Source of the DNA: Candidatus Nitrosocosmicus arcticus
GTDB lineage: Archaea > Thermoproteota > Nitrososphaeria > Nitrososphaerales > Nitrososphaeraceae
DNA: 64,000 nucleotides
Direction of reading: 5' to 3'
Assembly: GCF_007826885.1 (NCBI RefSeq)
Contig: NZ_ML675581.1
Coordinates: 62,001-126,000, forward strand
The notes under the pieces were generated by a model. That model worked only from the letters and a program-made list of their open reading frames with translations. It did no database searches and had not been told where the DNA came from. Shown here one piece after another: positions 31,214 through 41,727 of this stretch. The first letter of the stretch is position 1, and each line of letters starts with the position of its first letter. The position numbers and the translations under genes are program-made.

Positions 31214-32182
31214 TCATTTATTTTTCAAACCTTGAGCAACTAATATCGAATAACATCCCAGTCCACATTTTTCACATATTGGCTTCATTGCTTTACTATC
31301 CGAGCTTCCTATACAACAAGGCTGTTTCGACTTCCCTTTGTGGTCCAATGATAATATTGCCCATGAAGGACAGTCAACGGGATTAGTTTTAATTCCTCCC
31401 CAGTTGCCCTTCATTAACTCTAGTTGTTTTTCAGTATTCATGATGAAATCTGGGTATTTACTTCTTAGTCTTAGAATATTGTTAATTATATCAGTTCTGT
31501 TATTGCCATATGGTAACCAAAGTGGATCATTATCTGCAAAAGGAGTATGAAATTGAAACCCTATTTTATTTATCGTATCTTTCCATTCATTAATCAGATC
31601 TTCGATGGTGGTATAATTCAGAGAATTTATAGTCATAGTGATCCAAATGTCCTTCCACGCTGGTTTTCCATTGCGAGCAGGTCCATTGATATAATCTAAA
31701 ATGTTCTTTTTGGTTTTCGAATATGCGCCTTTTCCTCTTATGCTATCATGTACTTCTTCTGTCCCATCAAGGGATACCCAGTAAAAGTAAAGATTATCAA
31801 ATCTGACAAGAGGATAAGTACCGTTTGTTACTACACATATTCTTCTGGGCATCTCGTCGCAGAAAACCTTTATTATATCTTGACGCATCATGGGTTCTCC
31901 TCCTACCAGTGTGACTACATAAACACGATGTTTTTTAAAGGTCTGTTTTATTATCTCTTTCCAGTCTCCAGTACTCAATTCATCTAGTTCATTTCTTCTG
32001 GTTTTCCACCAGTAACAATGCGAACAATGTAAATTACAGACATTGATGATATCTGCAGAGCCATAGATGAATGGTTTTGACTTAAAAAACTTAATGGAGA
32101 TATATTTACTTAGGATACTAAAAATTGTAGGTGCGTCTTTTATTATATCTGTTATACCCATACCGTATACAAGATCTACCAA
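31214..32182 (-). CDS. Radical SAM protein with Cys-rich C-terminus
   Basis: 322 residues. The radical-SAM iron-sulphur motif CNLHCSHC gives Cys49, Cys53 and Cys56, and GGEP at 94-97 contacts SAM. Further conserved pieces are ICVVTNGTYP and YWVSLDGTEEVHDSIRGKGAY. The C-terminal part has six Cys (271, 289, 290, 303, 306, 310), like the extra clusters of SPASM/twitch proteins that modify peptides or assemble cofactors. There is no signal peptide. No obvious peptide substrate gene is adjacent; the target is unknown. Confidence 0.88.
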   Translation of the reverse strand: MVDLVYGMGITDIIKDAPTIFSILSKYISIKFFKSKPFIYGSADIINVCNLHCSHCYWWKTRRNELDELSTGDWKEIIKQTFKKHRVYVVTLVGGEPMMRQDIIKVFCDEMPRRICVVTNGTYPLVRFDNLYFYWVSLDGTEEVHDSIRGKGAYSKTKKNILDYINGPARNGKPAWKDIWITMTINSLNYTTIEDLINEWKDTINKIGFQFHTPFADNDPLWLPYGNNRTDIINNILRLRSKYPDFIMNTEKQLELMKGNWGGIKTNPVDCPSWAILSLDHKGKSKQPCCIGSSDSKAMKPICEKCGLGCYSILVAQGLKNK

Positions 32183-32948: not shown

Positions 32949-33308
32949 ATGGTAATAGAAAAAAGTTATAATAATAATCACCTTCCCCTTATGTCATTAG
33001 ATTCTCTTCGTAAAAGCACTATAATCAATCAAACTAAAAATGAAAGTATAGTTGTCCTTGCTGCAGAACAATCATCTGAAGATGTAGAAACATCTTTTCG
33101 TCAAAGATACTCCCAAGAATTAAAAACTAAAAAACAGCAAATAAATAATAGTGAAAGAGGATTTGCTGAGTTAGACGACGAAAGAAGGAGTGTTAGACAG
33201 CAAATGATGCGAACTCCTGGACGAAGAGGGGAGATTATAAAAGAAGAGGAAATCTCTAAGGAATTTGGCAGGAGATTTTATGAAAATGAAGAGATACGTG
33301 CAAACTAG
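32949..33308 (+). CDS. Hypothetical charged protein
   Basis: 119 residues, no signal and no membrane segment. The middle and C-terminus are strongly charged and helical (FRQRYSQELKTKKQQI, ERGFAELDDERRSVRQQMMR), suggesting a coiled coil or nucleic-acid binding. A weak SD-like AGGAA lies just before the ATG. No family recognised. Confidence 0.5.
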   Translation: MVIEKSYNNNHLPLMSLDSLRKSTIINQTKNESIVVLAAEQSSEDVETSFRQRYSQELKTKKQQINNSERGFAELDDERRSVRQQMMRTPGRRGEIIKEEEISKEFGRRFYENEEIRAN

Positions 33309-33887
33309 AGCCCTTCACTATCTCATAATATTATAATTATTATATAGTTTTATCTCAAAAAAATAAAGTTTTTACCAGTTTGTAGAATTGCATTTCATGT
33401 TCTAGATGCTTATCCATATTCCGGTAATGACATCAACATCAATATGCTCTAGCCTTGTTTATAGCAAAGACACATGGGTGTAAGTGTTCCTAGATAATAT
33501 CTTGAATCTCATCAGCTCAGACAGTATCAATTTTTTTTGATGATGTGATTTTACCTCGTATAAATATGATGACTATGTCATTATTTGAAAGAGGTAAAAT
33601 ATGCCTATGATATCTCTTCAAAATGAAGGCTAAAGTGCCAAGCAAATATGCCCAAAAGTCAAACGAAAGGAATTTGCGCATCTTATCTTATATTTGTAAA
33701 ATGTTGCCATTAGCAGCGATCACCAAATCTTGAGATCTTTTGAAACGTGATGGTTAGATAATAAATGAGTTTTTTAGGTTCTATTGCAAATACTTTAGGT
33801 CCCGTTTTATCTAATTATATATGCCATTTAGTACCTTTTTTGATAATGCTTAATATGGTATCATGTATATATTAACTTGTGAGTAAC
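33309..33887. other. Non-coding stretch
   Basis: AT-rich with no coding signal. The last 40 bases include TATATATTA, a plausible TATA box for the microprotein that starts at 33888. Confidence 0.4.
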
Positions 33888-34016
33888 ATGGATAACCTTC
33901 AATTACTAATTTGTAAGAATTGTACCCATTCAAGGGATGAGCACAGACAACAACCCAGCGGGCCAAGATTTTATGATCATCGCTGTTTATTTTGTAAGTG
34001 CCAGCAATTTACATAA
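33888..34016 (+). CDS. Zinc-ribbon microprotein, copy 1
   Basis: A 42-residue protein starting MDNLQLLICKNCTHSRDEHR, then GPRFYDHRCLFCKCQQFT. The two Cys knuckles CKNC and CLFCKC, about 24 residues apart, would hold one zinc ion. A second gene of the same family is at 40838-40972, and the two share FYDHRCL and the ending CKCQQFT exactly. That conservation, together with near-identical DNA at many codons, shows these short frames are real genes. They could bind nucleic acid or protein. Confidence 0.8.
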   Translation: MDNLQLLICKNCTHSRDEHRQQPSGPRFYDHRCLFCKCQQFT

Positions 34017-34359
34017 AGTTATTTTTCTCTCCCATTTCCATTAGTCATTTAATGACATGCGTGTCTACTTCTACTTGAACAGAGTGTATTTCTATGGTAT
34101 TTCTAATTCACACCATTCATCATTATTGCGATTTTCTTCACAATTTTATTTATGAAAATAGAATTGTGATTAGCTTGTTTATAAAATTGGTAGACTATCT
34201 ATGTGCCAATAAGTATAAGCACATCCCAGGCCAACATCCCGGAAAACATTGCTTTTAATATGCTATTTAAATACCATGGAAACAACCGTATTCAATGTCT
34301 ATACCAATTATGAGCAACATCATCTCTAAGGATAAATTCTGTATTAGCGATCTATCCAA
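34017..34359. other. Non-coding stretch
   Basis: AT-rich, no coding sequence; it contains the promoter region for the following TTG-start gene. Confidence 0.35.
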
Positions 34360-35328
34360 TTGAAGTCCGAAATCCTAAAAAGATACTCAAATAATCCTAT
34401 ACTTATTCCCAATAAGAATAACTGGTGGGAATCAGAAGCTGTTTTTAACTGTGCCATATTATATGATGGAAAAAAAATTCATATGCTTTATCGTGCGATC
34501 GGAGAATATGAACACTACCTTTCAAGAATAGGATATGCATCCAGTGATGATGGTTATCTCTTTAGTCGGCGTGATGGAATAGCGTTTAATCCAACATTGG
34601 ACTATGAAAAATTCGGTATCGAAGATCCTCGATTGTCTGAAATCGACAATCAAATCTACATTACTTATGTAGTATTACCTGATCGTCCAAAAAAAGGCCC
34701 AATGGTATCAACCGCATTAGCAACTACTGGAGATTATTCAAAATTTGAAAGACTGGGCATCATTACAAATGAAGGGATGGATAACAAAGATGTGGTTCTT
34801 TTTCCGTCCAAATTGCCCTCTAAAGATACATTGAATGGCGAAAAGATGACCTACTTCTGCCTGCATAGGCCAAGTTCTTGGGTAGGTGACGCATACGGAA
34901 TAGATAGACCTGGTATATGGATTGGAGAGGGATCTACTTTGACAGGGTTTGAAACCCATAGTTTGCTTATGAAACCGGAACAAAAATGGGAAGAATTAAA
35001 GATCGGTGCTGGTTCTCCGCCTATTAGAACAAAATACGGCTGGTTAGTGATATATCATGGTGTGAGTGCAGACAGAACCTATAGTGCTGGTGCTGCACTT
35101 CTTGATTTAGAAGATCCATATAAAATAATTTGTAGAAGCAAAGAACCCATTTTAGTACCTACCACCCAATATGAGAAATATGGCGATGTAAACAATGTGG
35201 TCTTTCCCACAGGTGCTTGCATTATCAATGGAGAACTTTTTGTCTATTATGGTGGTGCGGATAAGGTGTGTTGCCTTGCAACGGCCAAAATAAGCGACCT
35301 AGTAGATTATATTTTTCAAAATAGTTAA
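34360..35328 (+). CDS. Glycoside hydrolase family 130 (mannoside phosphorylase-like)
   Basis: 322 residues with TTG start. The five-bladed-propeller GH130 pattern is clear: NNPILIPNKNNWWESEAVFNC, KIHMLYRAIGE, RIGYASSDDGYLF, FGIEDPRL (EDPR at 88-91, with the catalytic Asp89), then VFPSKL, YGIDRPGIWIGEG, GAGSPPI and VVFPTGA. GH130 enzymes phosphorolyse or hydrolyse beta-mannosides. No signal peptide, so intracellular. It precedes, on the opposite strand, a GT4 glycosyltransferase; the two may serve mannose-containing glycan turnover, but no operon connects them. Confidence 0.9.
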   Translation: MKSEILKRYSNNPILIPNKNNWWESEAVFNCAILYDGKKIHMLYRAIGEYEHYLSRIGYASSDDGYLFSRRDGIAFNPTLDYEKFGIEDPRLSEIDNQIYITYVVLPDRPKKGPMVSTALATTGDYSKFERLGIITNEGMDNKDVVLFPSKLPSKDTLNGEKMTYFCLHRPSSWVGDAYGIDRPGIWIGEGSTLTGFETHSLLMKPEQKWEELKIGAGSPPIRTKYGWLVIYHGVSADRTYSAGAALLDLEDPYKIICRSKEPILVPTTQYEKYGDVNNVVFPTGACIINGELFVYYGGADKVCCLATAKISDLVDYIFQNS

Positions 35329-35697
35329 TCTATCAGGCGTCGTTAACTCCATAAAATATTGTAGGCTTAAGAAAACTAATTTTATCGCAGAATAGCATAA
35401 AAACTGAGCGGCAATTTCACTGTCTATCGTTTATATGTTATTCTCTAGTTCTATAAAATGCACTTTAGAAAATCATCAAATCATTACCTTTACCTTTACT
35501 ATCAAGTGCTATAGTATGCAGTGAAAAACAAATTAAAAAATATATCATCCATGTTATTCTCAGAATTTAAAAAGATGATCACTTCTATAATATCTAAATT
35601 TGGGCCTAAAATGGCCTGGGCACTTAGTTTTACGAATCCATTGAGCACAGACCCTAAGTGTCGGTTATTATAAAATTATCAAACTACTGAATTTCTA
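35329..35697. other. Intergenic stretch between convergent genes
   Basis: AT-rich, no gene. Terminators for both flanking genes are expected here but no strong hairpin is seen. Confidence 0.35.
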
Positions 35698-37101
35698 TTA
35701 TGGGCTGGCATAAGGGAAGAGATTGTTTTTGATTCCCTCGTTCTTACTTAAAACTGTGTTATATAGTGCAAAATGCTGCAACGCAACATTATCCCACGTT
35801 AAATCCTTATTGAATTCCTCAATTCTTTTAGTATACTGGGAGTAATTAGCTTCTAGTTTCTTTATTGCCTTGGCAAATTCATTAGGTCTTCTTTTTACTA
35901 CTATCCCTAGTCCTTTATTTGCAAATTCTCTGAAGAAACCCAAATCAGTTGCTATGAATGGTAATCCGTGAGCTAGGGCATCAAACATTACCCCTGAACC
36001 TGAGGTTACGGTATAGGGGAGGATGATTATGTCACATGCATAAAAAAGAATTGAAAGTTCTTTATCTGTTAAGAATCCTCGATTCAAATTAATTATTTTA
36101 CTATGCTGCGTATCTTTCCTTTCTGTGTGTGGAGCTCTATTCTGGTTATCACGACCCTCTATTGAAGTCGGCTTTATTGGATTGTATAAATTTTCAGATT
36201 GATTAATTACCATCGCCCAATCATCCGGAATATCCATATCATTCAATATGTCCCAACCTTTTGTATGCGTCATGAATCCAAAGAATAGAGCTATTTTACG
36301 ATTTAGTGGTAAGGAGTATGCCTCCCTTGCCTCCTTTTTCTTTAAAGGCATATTCAAATTTGGTTCTGCACCATGGTATATAACAGTAAAATTTTTCAAT
36401 GTTTTTCCGTCATTACTGATATTTTCATTTTCGGATATTAATTTGGCCAAATAATTTGAAAAAACGATATTAGCCTGACTCATTTGCATTTTTTGCTTGT
36501 TTGCTGTATTAAAAGATCGGTAGTTTATGAAACGTTTCCAATACGCTATTATTTGCTTGCTTAGGTTGATCGGAAAGGTAATCATGTTTTTATTCAAAAG
36601 ATTAGGGTGTTTTGATAGCTCCATCCATTGTCGTAAGGGATATGCAGAATGAAATGTCGTAATTATGGGTATTTTACATTCTTTATAAAATTCGTCTATG
36701 TTGGTACTTAAGTTACTTGGATTGATAGCATCCATTTTTAGTCCATAAAGTCCATGTTCTAATTGTATATGCACAAGATCAGGGACAGACTCATCAATTA
36801 CATCTAGTATTATTTTGGAATTATTGCCATTTTCGGGATCAATACCCCGATAATCCCCTTTTCCTTTCTCGTTGCATAAAACAGAAACTTTCATACCCGA
36901 TCTTTTTAATCCCTCTGTGAGATTCTTTGCATACCTCCCAACGCCTCCGGGAATGGGTGGATATTCGGTGGAAACCATTAGAATTTTTAATGGAGATTTA
37001 TCATATTTATTTAACTTATAAGACATCATAGTAATAGATGGTATATTACACCCAAGACATATAAGGAAATGTAATAACCTTACAAATTCAGTGGTATTCA
37101 C
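35698..37101 (-). CDS. Glycosyltransferase family 4
   Basis: 467 residues. The GT4/GT-B fold starts at about 38 with KILMVSTEYPPIPGGVGRYAKNL, which makes an ATG at codon 25 or 26 (MMSYKL) the more likely true start. The donor-binding half has IALFFGFMTHTKGWDIL and IIILPYTVTSGSGVMFDALAHGLPFIATDLG, the region with the nucleotide-sugar-binding E/S-x7-E-type signature. It is an internal, retaining glycosyltransferase for surface glycans or lipids. A universal stress protein gene lies just upstream on the same strand. Confidence 0.88.
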   Translation of the reverse strand: MNTTEFVRLLHFLICLGCNIPSITMMSYKLNKYDKSPLKILMVSTEYPPIPGGVGRYAKNLTEGLKRSGMKVSVLCNEKGKGDYRGIDPENGNNSKIILDVIDESVPDLVHIQLEHGLYGLKMDAINPSNLSTNIDEFYKECKIPIITTFHSAYPLRQWMELSKHPNLLNKNMITFPINLSKQIIAYWKRFINYRSFNTANKQKMQMSQANIVFSNYLAKLISENENISNDGKTLKNFTVIYHGAEPNLNMPLKKKEAREAYSLPLNRKIALFFGFMTHTKGWDILNDMDIPDDWAMVINQSENLYNPIKPTSIEGRDNQNRAPHTERKDTQHSKIINLNRGFLTDKELSILFYACDIIILPYTVTSGSGVMFDALAHGLPFIATDLGFFREFANKGLGIVVKRRPNEFAKAIKKLEANYSQYTKRIEEFNKDLTWDNVALQHFALYNTVLSKNEGIKNNLFPYASP

Positions 37102-37132
37102 ACATTTTTTACCGGTATTTACTATATTTTGG

Positions 37133-37603
37133 TTATCTTACCAAAACGACTGGACACGTTGCTACTTCTGAAATCCAGCGAGAAATACTTCCTATACCTT
37201 TTCTATCATGCCTTTTCTTCAATGATCCACTACTACCCATTACTATCATACTCGAATTCTCTTCTTTAGATACGGTAAGAATTTCATCTGCCGGATGGCC
37301 TACCCGAATTATTGACTTGGCTGCAACACCTTCATGGGTTAATCTATCTACCTCATTTCCAATCATGATCTCAGCTCCCTCCCTAATTGATTTCTCATAA
37401 TAATGCCTAGCTTTATCGAGATCATCCAAATTTGAAATAAACTTTGCAATTTCTTGAGGGTAGAAGCTTGTATCATCAATAATATACAAAACAATTATAG
37501 TAGAACTCTGGTTTGCTGCAAGATCTCTAGCCTTATCTAAGGCCTTTACTGACAGCTCAGTCGCATCAAATGGAACCAAAATATTGGATTTATTGTCATT
37601 CAT
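37133..37603 (-). CDS. Universal stress protein (UspA family)
   Basis: 156 residues. NILVPFDATELSVKALDKARDLA is the typical first strand and helix; VLYIID and VGHPADEI follow, and the end MGSSGSLKKRH to GIGSISRWISEVATCPVVLVR holds the ATP-binding GxxG-(9-11)-G-S loop. It is a cytosolic single-domain protein, probably ATP-binding. It lies 31 bases upstream of the GT4 gene, possibly co-transcribed. The role in stress is by family. Confidence 0.9.
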   Translation of the reverse strand: MNDNKSNILVPFDATELSVKALDKARDLAANQSSTIIVLYIIDDTSFYPQEIAKFISNLDDLDKARHYYEKSIREGAEIMIGNEVDRLTHEGVAAKSIIRVGHPADEILTVSKEENSSMIVMGSSGSLKKRHDRKGIGSISRWISEVATCPVVLVR

Positions 37604-37803
37604 TTATTATTACATGATTTTTTGAATATATAGACATCACCTTTTCGCAACATCGTCTTATTTTCCTTATATCTTTGATTGGGTTGAATTCAATGAAATA
37701 TACGAATACCAATGAATAAAGGATTAAAGTTTTAAACCAAGTAAAAAACAAACTTATATTCGATAGATGCTTTAAGAAAACAATAAAATGAAGAAAATAA
37801 CTT

Positions 37804-38187
37804 ATGACATCGAGTGTTAAAAATAAAATGCCCAATAAACAAGTTAAACAAGAAAAACCATCAGCTAAAATAGAAATATTAAAAAAAGCAAAGAAAAAGG
37901 TATCTGACGTATCACAATGTGATAATCTATCTATTGCTGAAATAGATGCGCTTCACTATCATTATAGCAAGCTTTCTCCATTATTTAAAAATGCTCCTCA
38001 TCCTACATTTGTGGTTTTAAGGATCTTAGAACGTCATATCCAAATAGATAATATTGTTATTGGAGATGTAATAAATGAAATCAAACAAAGAGGACTCGAT
38101 ATCTCTCATACTGATACACAAATAGATGCATTGGTGAATGATCTAGCATCAAATAATAAAAAATATAAAGCAAAATCCAATGATTAA
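37804..38187 (+). CDS. Hypothetical Lys-rich cytosolic protein
   Basis: 127 residues without signal or membrane segment. A basic N-terminus (KQVKQEKPSAKIEILKKAKKK) precedes a helical domain, SIAEIDALHYHYSKLSPLF and NAPHPTFVVLRILERHIQI, and another helix pair ending in NDLASNNKKYK. The fold could be a winged helix but no match is recognised. Codon composition is like other genes here. Confidence 0.65.
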   Translation: MTSSVKNKMPNKQVKQEKPSAKIEILKKAKKKVSDVSQCDNLSIAEIDALHYHYSKLSPLFKNAPHPTFVVLRILERHIQIDNIVIGDVINEIKQRGLDISHTDTQIDALVNDLASNNKKYKAKSND

Positions 38188-38667
38188 GGCCTAAAAAGTA
38201 TGTATTTATTAGAACAGAGAAACATCGGATACCTTTCTTCATAATATTTCTACTATTAGATACATATATTAAAAAAAGGTATTTTGGATTAAGGATTATT
38301 ATCGCAAGAAATAAAACAAATAAATAAAGTAGAATTAACAAAGTCAATTTTTATATATGCTAATTTGTGAATATGATTCCACAATTGCAGTACAATTGGA
38401 TGATCTTGTTGAAGGTCATGTTCTACTGGATGGAATACTTGAATCCGTTGTTGATATCCAAATTTTTACGATCATAATATATATACATCATTTTAAAAAG
38501 CATAAAAAAAAGAGAATTACCTCTTACAAATCGGAACGATGTAACTATAGTTATTGTTGTTTAAGATTGTTAATACCACAATTCAGTACTAGTCATCCTT
38601 CCTTGTTACTTTATATTTGACCTACACAAAAACATGATTAAGATAGAATGATTTGAATGTCCTGAAT
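38188..38667. other. Non-coding stretch
   Basis: AT-rich, between convergent genes. An 87-codon plus-strand frame (38357-38620) has an unstable composition and no similarity and is not accepted. Confidence 0.35.
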
Positions 38668-38841
38668 TTATGACAGATCTACATAGTCCTCAATTACATA
38701 ATCATTCAAATGCCCTTTAGGGCATTTATATGTTGAATTTGGATTCTTCTCGGACTCATTTCTAAATTCATTCATGTTGTCTGCATATACTCCACTAAAA
38801 ATAATACCACAAGTTTTACATTTTAACATAAGCATTGGCAT
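38668..38841 (-). CDS. Small zinc-ribbon protein
   Basis: A 57-residue frame with ATG at 38841: MPMLMLKCKTCGIIFSGVYA, then a polar helix, then TYKCPKGHLNDYVIEDYVDLS. CKTCG and CPKGH form a C-x2-C / C-x2-H zinc ribbon of the small rubredoxin-like type common in Nitrososphaerota. It is short but the metal-ligand pattern and start are convincing. Confidence 0.75.
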   Translation of the reverse strand: MPMLMLKCKTCGIIFSGVYADNMNEFRNESEKNPNSTYKCPKGHLNDYVIEDYVDLS

Positions 38842-40837
38842 CTTTATTCCTTCATCCTCGACGTTCTCTATACGTTGAACTTGTTATTATGCTTACATAG
38901 ATCCGGAAACTCGATAATCAAAATCAAAATGATAATCTGACAAGATCAGTCACCATCCAAGCATGAACTTTTACATATGTATATTAATTTTAATTTAGAT
39001 TTTTAATGTAGTTTTTCATTCTCCTTGAAAATTACACTTTGTATCTATCGAAAGGAAAAATATAATTAAAGTTGATTCCAAAGATAAATTGTAATTTACG
39101 TTCTTCATAGCAAATGCCTGGTGACTCCAATACTTGTATGGTCCCAAATTCTTGCTGATATCTATGCATTATATATTCACCAATTGAGGATATCTTTTTT
39201 TTGCTGTTATGATTTAAATGATATACGATGGTAATTATGCATTTCAGAAAAAGCAGATCTTCTACAAAACCTTTTGATAATTTCTATTTATTATTTTCAT
39301 ACAAATGGGCTAAAGCGGCCGATTGCCATTATGTATATTTAACAGAGTACTGAATTGACTTTGTACTGTGCCTATTGAAATAGACGAATAATATGTCACG
39401 AATCGAATGTCTTCAAAGGTTATTCAGGGGGAATGGATTTGAGACGATAGTAAGCAAATCCATTGACTATGGATCCTATTTTACGGTTTAAATTGAGTTA
39501 TCTAACATGCACGAGAATATCTCCAGCTGCCGTTATGAAATGTCTCAATGAATCTAACCCCTTCAGTATTATTTCTTATCCTGGTATTGCCATTCTTAGG
39601 GTTATTAAGCTGATTTCTCTTATTAATGACTTCAATAAGTTTTCTCATGTTTATATATACATTTCCTCATATAAGAGCGTATAAAATATTGATAACAAGT
39701 CAAATTTCCATTTTTAGGGCGATATATCGCCAAGCACTGACCTCGGTAATATGCTAATTATTGCGCTTGTAAATGAATACGGTCTACCGCATCACGGAAG
39801 GGAGATTAATACGATCCAGTTCACAATACTATAAGTTCTATCAACCTTGATCTTTTATTGCAAGTTACTTATTTCAAATTAGTCTACCAAATTATTGAAA
39901 ATCCTTCGTTATCGTACTTATTATTATTAATCCTTTGAATTCGATAATATCTTCAATTCATTCGGTAAAATATTGCTTTATGCTCTGATGATTTAATGAG
40001 AAAAAGATCCCATCCATCTTTATGGAATTAAAATATTATCGTTATATTCTCATTCTTTCTTTTATTCAAGAGGCCAAAAAGGTACGGGCCTTATCTTTGG
40101 TTAATTTCAATCAGTATTATTCTTTTGAGTATTTTCATTTTGGAAGTTTTCATTTTGGAAGTACATGTGGTTATTACCTTTAGTACGCTTTGGCACGTTT
40201 GCAATTGTTGCTTCATCATCATTCTTGCTATACGACATCAATAACTATTGTGCTTCATCTTATATAAGATTATAATAGGTTCTGGTTTCTAAGAGAACAC
40301 ATCTATTTTGAAAGATAATCTAATGATCTTCTGCAATCAGTTGGCGTAGAATTTTTCATGAAATTCAAATGTTAAGACCTGGTCTTTTTGATCCTGGTGC
40401 ATTTTCTGGAGTCCATGTTTTATTGAGGTAATTTGCTTATAATACACGCAGTTGGTGATAGTATTCAAGTTAGATTATTCCACTGCAGGAAGAAAAATGG
40501 GATTTGTAACTGAAGTCTCATGACGTAAATGTAATTAAACCATCGAATCCAGAAATCATTCAGTTATTACATGATAATTGATATATTAATATACATTGAA
40601 TTTCTCATTCTAATATCGTAGTCTAGATTTTACGATATTGTCTATATTATTGTCAATAAATTCTTGGCATACGTTTCAACCATAACTTGTCACCTTTGTA
40701 GGGTAAAATAGCGAGCATTTTGAGAGGATGTTATCAAATTCTGGCGAGTCTAGACACCTTTTTTATCGATAGCCAGAATTTACTATTGCCTAGTAATTTT
40801 TCCAACATTAATATATTTGTAAGGCAAATAATAAATA
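38842..40837. other. 2-kb gene-poor stretch
   Basis: The largest gap here. No gene is accepted. A 45-codon minus-strand frame near 39042-39179 (HRYQQEFGTIQVLESPGICY) and a 73-codon plus-strand frame at 39463-39684 cannot be assigned. A 14-bp perfect palindrome, GGCGATATATCGCC, is at 39718-39731. The duplicated TTTTCATTTTGGAAG near 40130-40162 is a small tandem repeat. Confidence 0.4.
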
Positions 40838-40972
40838 ATGAATGATGCTAGTTTTCAATTATTAATATGTAAAAATTGTACCCATTCAAAGAAAGAACAC
40901 AGGGATGAACCTAATGGTCCAAAATTTTATGACCACAGATGTCTTCTATGTAAGTGCCAACAATTTACATGA
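40838..40972 (+). CDS. Zinc-ribbon microprotein, copy 2
   Basis: 44 residues: MNDASFQLLICKNCTHSKKE, then GPKFYDHRCLLCKCQQFT. It is the paralogue of 33888-34016 with the same Cys spacing (CKNC, CLLCKC) and the same end. Differences are concentrated in the Lys/Arg/Glu middle. AATATATTT about 30 bases upstream is a possible TATA box. Confidence 0.8.
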   Translation: MNDASFQLLICKNCTHSKKEHRDEPNGPKFYDHRCLLCKCQQFT

Positions 40973-41211
40973 CCTTGCCTTCCCCATTTTTTTGAAGATG
41001 AGTATTAAAGATGCCGTTATAGTATTAATATGAAGAGGGGGTCAGGTCCAAAAGGTCTCTAAAATGAATTACACCAGACAAATTCTATCTGATGTTTTTG
41101 ATACCTTCTGATAATAATAGATTCATGCTTTCTTCACATAGTTTCGGTGTGCTGTCTTTATAATGAAAAGATCTAGATTATCAATTTACCAAATATGACC
41201 TGGGTTGTATG

Positions 41212-41727
41212 TCACCCGTGTCGTTCTTTTTTAATGAAACTTATTTGGCCATTTATCTCTAAATTTGAAATGTCTATCTCCTGTATATCTCTTATTCCTG
41301 CCAATCGCATAAAAGATTGATACTCTTTCATACCTATTCTAGCTTTTATCATTCCTTCCTCATCCATTTGCCCATCCTTAACCAATTCTATGACGTCTGG
41401 ATTTATTATTTTCTCCATTCTTTTATTTTTGGCACTTACATAATCTAACAGCTTAAATAATACGATGATGATAACTACGACAGTAACCATAGATAATATT
41501 GGTGCGTCATTATTCAGCATAGGTTCTGCCACAATGTTTCCAAGGCTCAATATTATGATTAATTGATAGGCGGTTAATTGATTGACTCCTTTACTTCCAA
41601 TCCATTTTATTACAAAAAGAATAATTCCAGATACAATCAACGTCCTCATGATGATGGATAATGTTAACGCAGGTTCAAAACTCAACGCGGTATTCAGATA
41701 TTCTAGAAATGATGTAACAATGTCCAT
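41212..41727 (-). CDS. DUF421 (YetF/YcaP-like) membrane protein
   Basis: 171 residues with three membrane segments at about 22-42, 52-67 and 76-94. The DUF421 hallmarks are present: IKWIGSKGVNQLTAYQLIIILSLGN, then the cytosolic domain with INPDVIELVKDGQMDEEGMIKARIG and MRLAGIRDIQEI. The family is of unknown function and is widespread in bacteria and in soil archaea. Length is somewhat short compared with bacterial members, the second soluble subdomain being partial. Confidence 0.88.
   Translation of the reverse strand: MDIVTSFLEYLNTALSFEPALTLSIIMRTLIVSGIILFVIKWIGSKGVNQLTAYQLIIILSLGNIVAEPMLNNDAPILSMVTVVVIIIVLFKLLDYVSAKNKRMEKIINPDVIELVKDGQMDEEGMIKARIGMKEYQSFMRLAGIRDIQEIDISNLEINGQISFIKKERHG

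Follow-up and report, generated by a model that had tools for sequence, protein, structure and literature searches.

A widespread family of Cys/His microproteins in ammonia-oxidising archaea, probably metal-binding, with two members in a 64,000-nt stretch of Candidatus Nitrosocosmicus arcticus

The closest described systems are found in haloarchaea. The one-domain zinc-finger µ-proteins of Haloferax volcanii (C(P)XCG; PMC6562870, PMC11241148) resemble the proteins studied here in being archaeal, shorter than 70 aa, single-domain, numerous in one genome and mostly uncharacterised. Those tested are individually dispensable (PMC6562870, PMC11241148), and deletions alter stress adaptation, biofilm formation and swarming (PMC6562870). 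Two further observations on the C(P)XCG microproteins concern metal: 5 of the 14 purified from Haloferax held no zinc, and AlphaFold2 is reported not to predict correctly if their four cysteines are placed for binding metal (PMC11241148). Brz of Halobacterium salinarum (PMC2253796) is likewise small and carries a zinc finger; it comes from an intergenic region and is a transcription regulator, which is the kind of function proposed below.

The window (the whole stretch of DNA analysed, 64,000 nt) contains two related microprotein genes, called copy 1 and copy 2. The features needed here are the following:

31214..32182, minus strand: radical SAM protein (PF04055); recurs within 2.5-6 kb of microprotein copies, given for context only
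33850-33855, plus strand: TATA-like box of copy 1, TTAATA, at -29 from the GTG
33879..34016, plus strand: copy 1, a 45-aa microprotein with GTG start (MSNMDNLQLLICKNCTHSRDEHRQQPSGPRFYDHRCLFCKCQQFT); ATG/GTG swap in orthologs, TATA-like box spacing, purifying selection
40808-40813, plus strand: TATA-like box of copy 2, TTAATA, at -30 from the ATG
40838..40972, plus strand: copy 2, a 44-aa microprotein with ATG start (MNDASFQLLICKNCTHSKKEHRDEPNGPKFYDHRCLLCKCQQFT); orthologs 93-100% identical, purifying selection

A sequence-only reading had reported frames at 33888-34016 and 40838-40972 on the plus strand; the translations are as claimed, with LICKNCTHS, FYDHRCL and CKCQQFT common to both. Its start for copy 1 (ATG 33888) is moved to GTG 33879, giving 45 aa, because the orthologs have ATG (G013) or GTG (G012, G014 and G006) at that site in the ortholog alignment and because the TATA-like box is correctly spaced from it. 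The paralogs also start with M/V-S at the equivalent position. Each copy is isolated in a long intergenic region, as described earlier: 33309-34359 and 38842-41211 hold no other plausible genes. Variation had been placed in the middle of the proteins only; the middle is indeed variable, but so is the N-terminus. Shuffling the window 120 times never produced the exact Cys/His pattern, of which the window itself has two occurrences.

Both copies differ from the described systems in their motifs. The Haloferax proteins have two C(P)XCG knuckles (four Cys), whereas the window copies have C-x2-C-x-H-x4-H followed by C-x(2-5)-C-x-C and no CPXCG knuckle; judged by the µ-protein definition (PMC11241148), they are shorter than 70 aa but do not carry the C(P)XCG motif. 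Brz, compared by description only, has a C3H motif with one C(P)XCG and is encoded next to its target, bop. By analogy, the microproteins may function like the Haloferax µ-proteins or Brz without belonging to the C(P)XCG set. Profile searches against Pfam, NCBIfam, PHROGs and the PDB gave nothing above the curated cut-offs. The closest profile match is phrog_1311 (phage proteins), with matches from 16 of 60 members (best E 1.6e-4), those shown spanning the Cys/His region; the likeness is weak, with E 0.0018 and 0.068 for the window copies. NinD of the phage lambda nin region (PF17466), also a small Cys-containing protein, gave a weak Pfam match (E 0.022, 15.3 bits vs a gathering cut-off of 35 bits); kinship was rejected, as lambda NinD has neither C-x-H-x4-H nor C-x-C.

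The superfamily signature is C-x2-C-x-H-x4-H-x(8-15)-C-x(2-5)-C-x-C-x2-[F/Y], with seven near-invariant candidate ligands. Both window copies carry these seven positions at fixed spacing in a single-domain ORF, which places them in the superfamily, and their subfamily has a conserved extra His (DHRC), giving eight candidates. All seven C-C-H-H-C-C-C positions are kept in 113 of 117 profile hits, a count made with no motif filter on the hits but not wholly independent, since the profile was built from motif-filtered sequences; the four exceptions are two frameshifted copies and two with the second His lost. Most sequences are basic (pI >7.5 in 50 of 61). The near-invariant Cys/His set makes metal binding likely, in line with what had been proposed for the two copies. 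The single zinc ion of that proposal becomes one or two metal ions, both being possible because there are more than four candidate ligands. The label of zinc ribbon is not supported: a ribbon has two CPXCG-like knuckles giving four ligands, while here the second half reads C-x(2-5)-C-x-C, two His are near-invariant, the spacing differs and no fold match was found. The AlphaFold2 models are of low confidence (pLDDT 71 and 59) and have no extended strands. Foldseek searches with these weak models returned nothing significant; the list consisted mostly of RING domains at E 2 or more, and these matches were set aside as noise.

Comparison of the sequences points to protein-coding genes. Copy 1 and copy 2 differ at 16.2 of 22.3 synonymous sites (pS 0.72) and at 16.8 of 106.7 nonsynonymous sites (pN 0.16), with 9/6/18 differences at codon positions 1/2/3. 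Between copy 2 and its G013 ortholog there are eight synonymous and two nonsynonymous differences, and the between-species ratio is below that between the copies. Where dS is not saturated (74 of 120 pairs), dN/dS has a median of 0.115. In comparisons with less close species, identity is 88-93% over the ORF and 67-85% in the 100 nt on each side. It is close to certain from these comparisons that both frames are protein-coding and under purifying selection. The two frames had been taken for a duplicated gene family under selection, an idea that homologues beyond the two copies or codon-position bias could have overturned by their absence; both were found.

The family is considerably larger than the two members first proposed: a wider superfamily profile finds eight members in the genome of Candidatus Nitrosocosmicus arcticus, and of 70 genomes from the taxonomic family, 54 have superfamily members. 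Most relatives that bear a name in the genome collection belong to Candidatus Nitrosocosmicus. The subfamily of the window copies (CKNCxH..EHR...GP[KR]FYDHRCLxCxCxQF) is found in 11 of 15 genomes of this genus and in one genome of another genus (G021), with one to four intact, dispersed copies per genome plus decayed ones. Decayed copies are evident in G002 (which has fragments only), G003, G007 and G009, and copy 1 has lost one His in G012. The existence of decayed copies shows individual paralogs to be dispensable. In a 300-genome sample of the phylum, superfamily members are present in 32 genomes of family f9, probably Nitrosopumilaceae, and in two of family f18. The gene is nearly always single in f9. 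Most of the 18 loci read there belong to one or other of two conserved neighbourhoods; in the commoner, its neighbours are a zinc-type alcohol dehydrogenase-like gene and a gene of about 78 aa. The f9 form (MNC-RCHHT ... IDEDLL) is also present in genus g12. As a separate observation, the single microprotein gene at L193-L210 of f9 often adjoins the gene for the protein of about 78 aa, which has no known family, and one base is shared in places. The superfamily is single and syntenic in this second family of the order; the genes of the window are multicopy, with gains and losses.

Taken at this scale, the sequences represent a large uncatalogued family of tiny proteins, probably zinc-binding, across ammonia-oxidising archaea. 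The gene family is real and probably under-annotated; the suggestion that its members are too short for routine gene calling is supported. Neither Pfam nor NCBIfam has a model for this family, which is conserved across ammonia-oxidising archaea and multiplied in the soil genus, probably owing to the small size of its members, about 45 residues. It gives studies of small proteins a defined set of targets in a group of global importance whose regulation is little understood.

Each window copy has its own TATA-like sequence, as noted earlier (TTAATA at -29 and -30), and the intact subfamily copies examined, dispersed copies of other genomes among them, all have TTAATA between -28 and -30, the distance in L079 being counted from the second of two ATGs. 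Among most dispersed paralogs, DNA similarity extends from about -45 to the stop only. An archaeal TATA box at such a distance from the start codon fits leaderless transcription. Because the box-to-start spacing is fixed, we infer that each gene would be transcribed alone as a leaderless mRNA, and further genes of this kind can be looked for simply by that spacing. A wider regulon was sought with the promoter 20-mer and was discarded, since sites outside the family were not above the backwards-pattern control.

The reading we prefer, at a probability of about 0.62, is that these are genes for single-domain, metal-folded microproteins working as stand-alone interaction modules. The chain from each leaderless mRNA would fold around zinc, one or two ions as suggested by the near-invariant Cys/His set, and would bind nucleic acid or a partner protein, by which it would tune expression or adaptation to stress; each paralog may owe its partner to the variable N-terminus and middle. 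This role is suggested by the small size, the mostly basic charge, the diversification of the paralogs and the known role of the haloarchaeal zinc-finger µ-proteins. A regulatory or adaptor function is an informed guess. Weighing against the reading are the poor AlphaFold2 models, the Haloferax microproteins purified without zinc and the dispensability of individual paralogs; nor is a mildly positive charge proof that nucleic acid is bound.

Other explanations were weighed against the same data. The frames are short and lie in intergenic DNA, so that they might have stayed open by chance within conserved non-coding RNA or DNA elements; this is the least credible of the alternatives and is already contradicted by the codon-position bias and low dN/dS, by frames that stay open across genomes while start codons swap, and by searches of 33300 to 41300 that returned no Rfam match. 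Dispersed copies and decayed relics might also be expected from parts of a mobile or selfish element spreading round the genome. Such an origin is very improbable: the unit common to most copies is promoter plus ORF only, no larger shared unit with element-like ends was seen between most copies, and positions are syntenic between species. The phage collection holds no relative; tblastn against phages and plasmids gave no matches or chance ones, the lone viral-contig hit (L046) being a chance match over a short CKNCTH stretch. The number of candidate ligands (seven or eight in 44 residues, above the need of a single structural zinc) and the multicopy state would suit a structural or metal-buffering role, as a small metallothionein-like store or chaperone of zinc or another soft metal. 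We consider this unlikely, though the least so of the alternatives, since the non-ligand GPKFYDHRCL and the terminal QF are also conserved, pointing to a fold or surface, and the Cys content of metallothioneins is well above the 5/44 of the microprotein.

Slightly less likely again is that the microprotein is the partner or substrate of the radical SAM enzyme at 31214-32182, whose gene lies near copy 1, for example as a modified peptide. Of 70 genomes of the family, 54 carry the radical SAM gene, with one to four copies each; within the genus it is often close to CxxCxH microprotein genes. In three single-contig genomes, six of seven copies have a microprotein gene within 6 kb, a result reached by 0 of 200,000 rotations; the link recurs in two kinds of neighbourhood that have no further frequent gene family in common, and in G017 about 80 bp separate the pair. 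Against this, other genes intervene, the copies are related by descent and so are not independent cases, some enzyme copies (G001, G008) have no microprotein nearby, the enzyme resembles known families only weakly, and conservation of the microprotein covers most of its sequence, whereas a typical precursor peptide has a variable core. Given the shared ancestry, intervening genes and unlinked copies, the association is a lead and no conclusion. Beyond the interaction-module reading, a bolder and doubtful scenario combines these elements: a binuclear metal microprotein family across ammonia-oxidising archaea, its ancestral gene syntenic in one family (probably Nitrosopumilaceae), which would have expanded in soil oxidisers into paralogs with leaderless promoters, some working with a linked radical SAM enzyme.

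Several observations on neighbouring genes are added here. The radical SAM protein at 31214-32182 is weakly like NCBIfam PTO1314 (69 bits vs a cut-off of 306). On the minus strand, 38668-38841 encodes a distinct protein of 57 aa that has a CxxC pair (CKTC) as well as additional Cys/His; no family matched it above cut-off. A protein of about 114 aa (NRNDILLS ... VFGDYEQRYDIP), without a Pfam match, recurs near subfamily copies in L077, L079, L080, L081, L082 and L084. Lastly, the genes at 34360-37603 (a GH130-like mannoside phosphorylase, a family 4-type glycosyltransferase and a universal stress protein) recur as a group beside microprotein copies in G005, G007 and the clade of the window.
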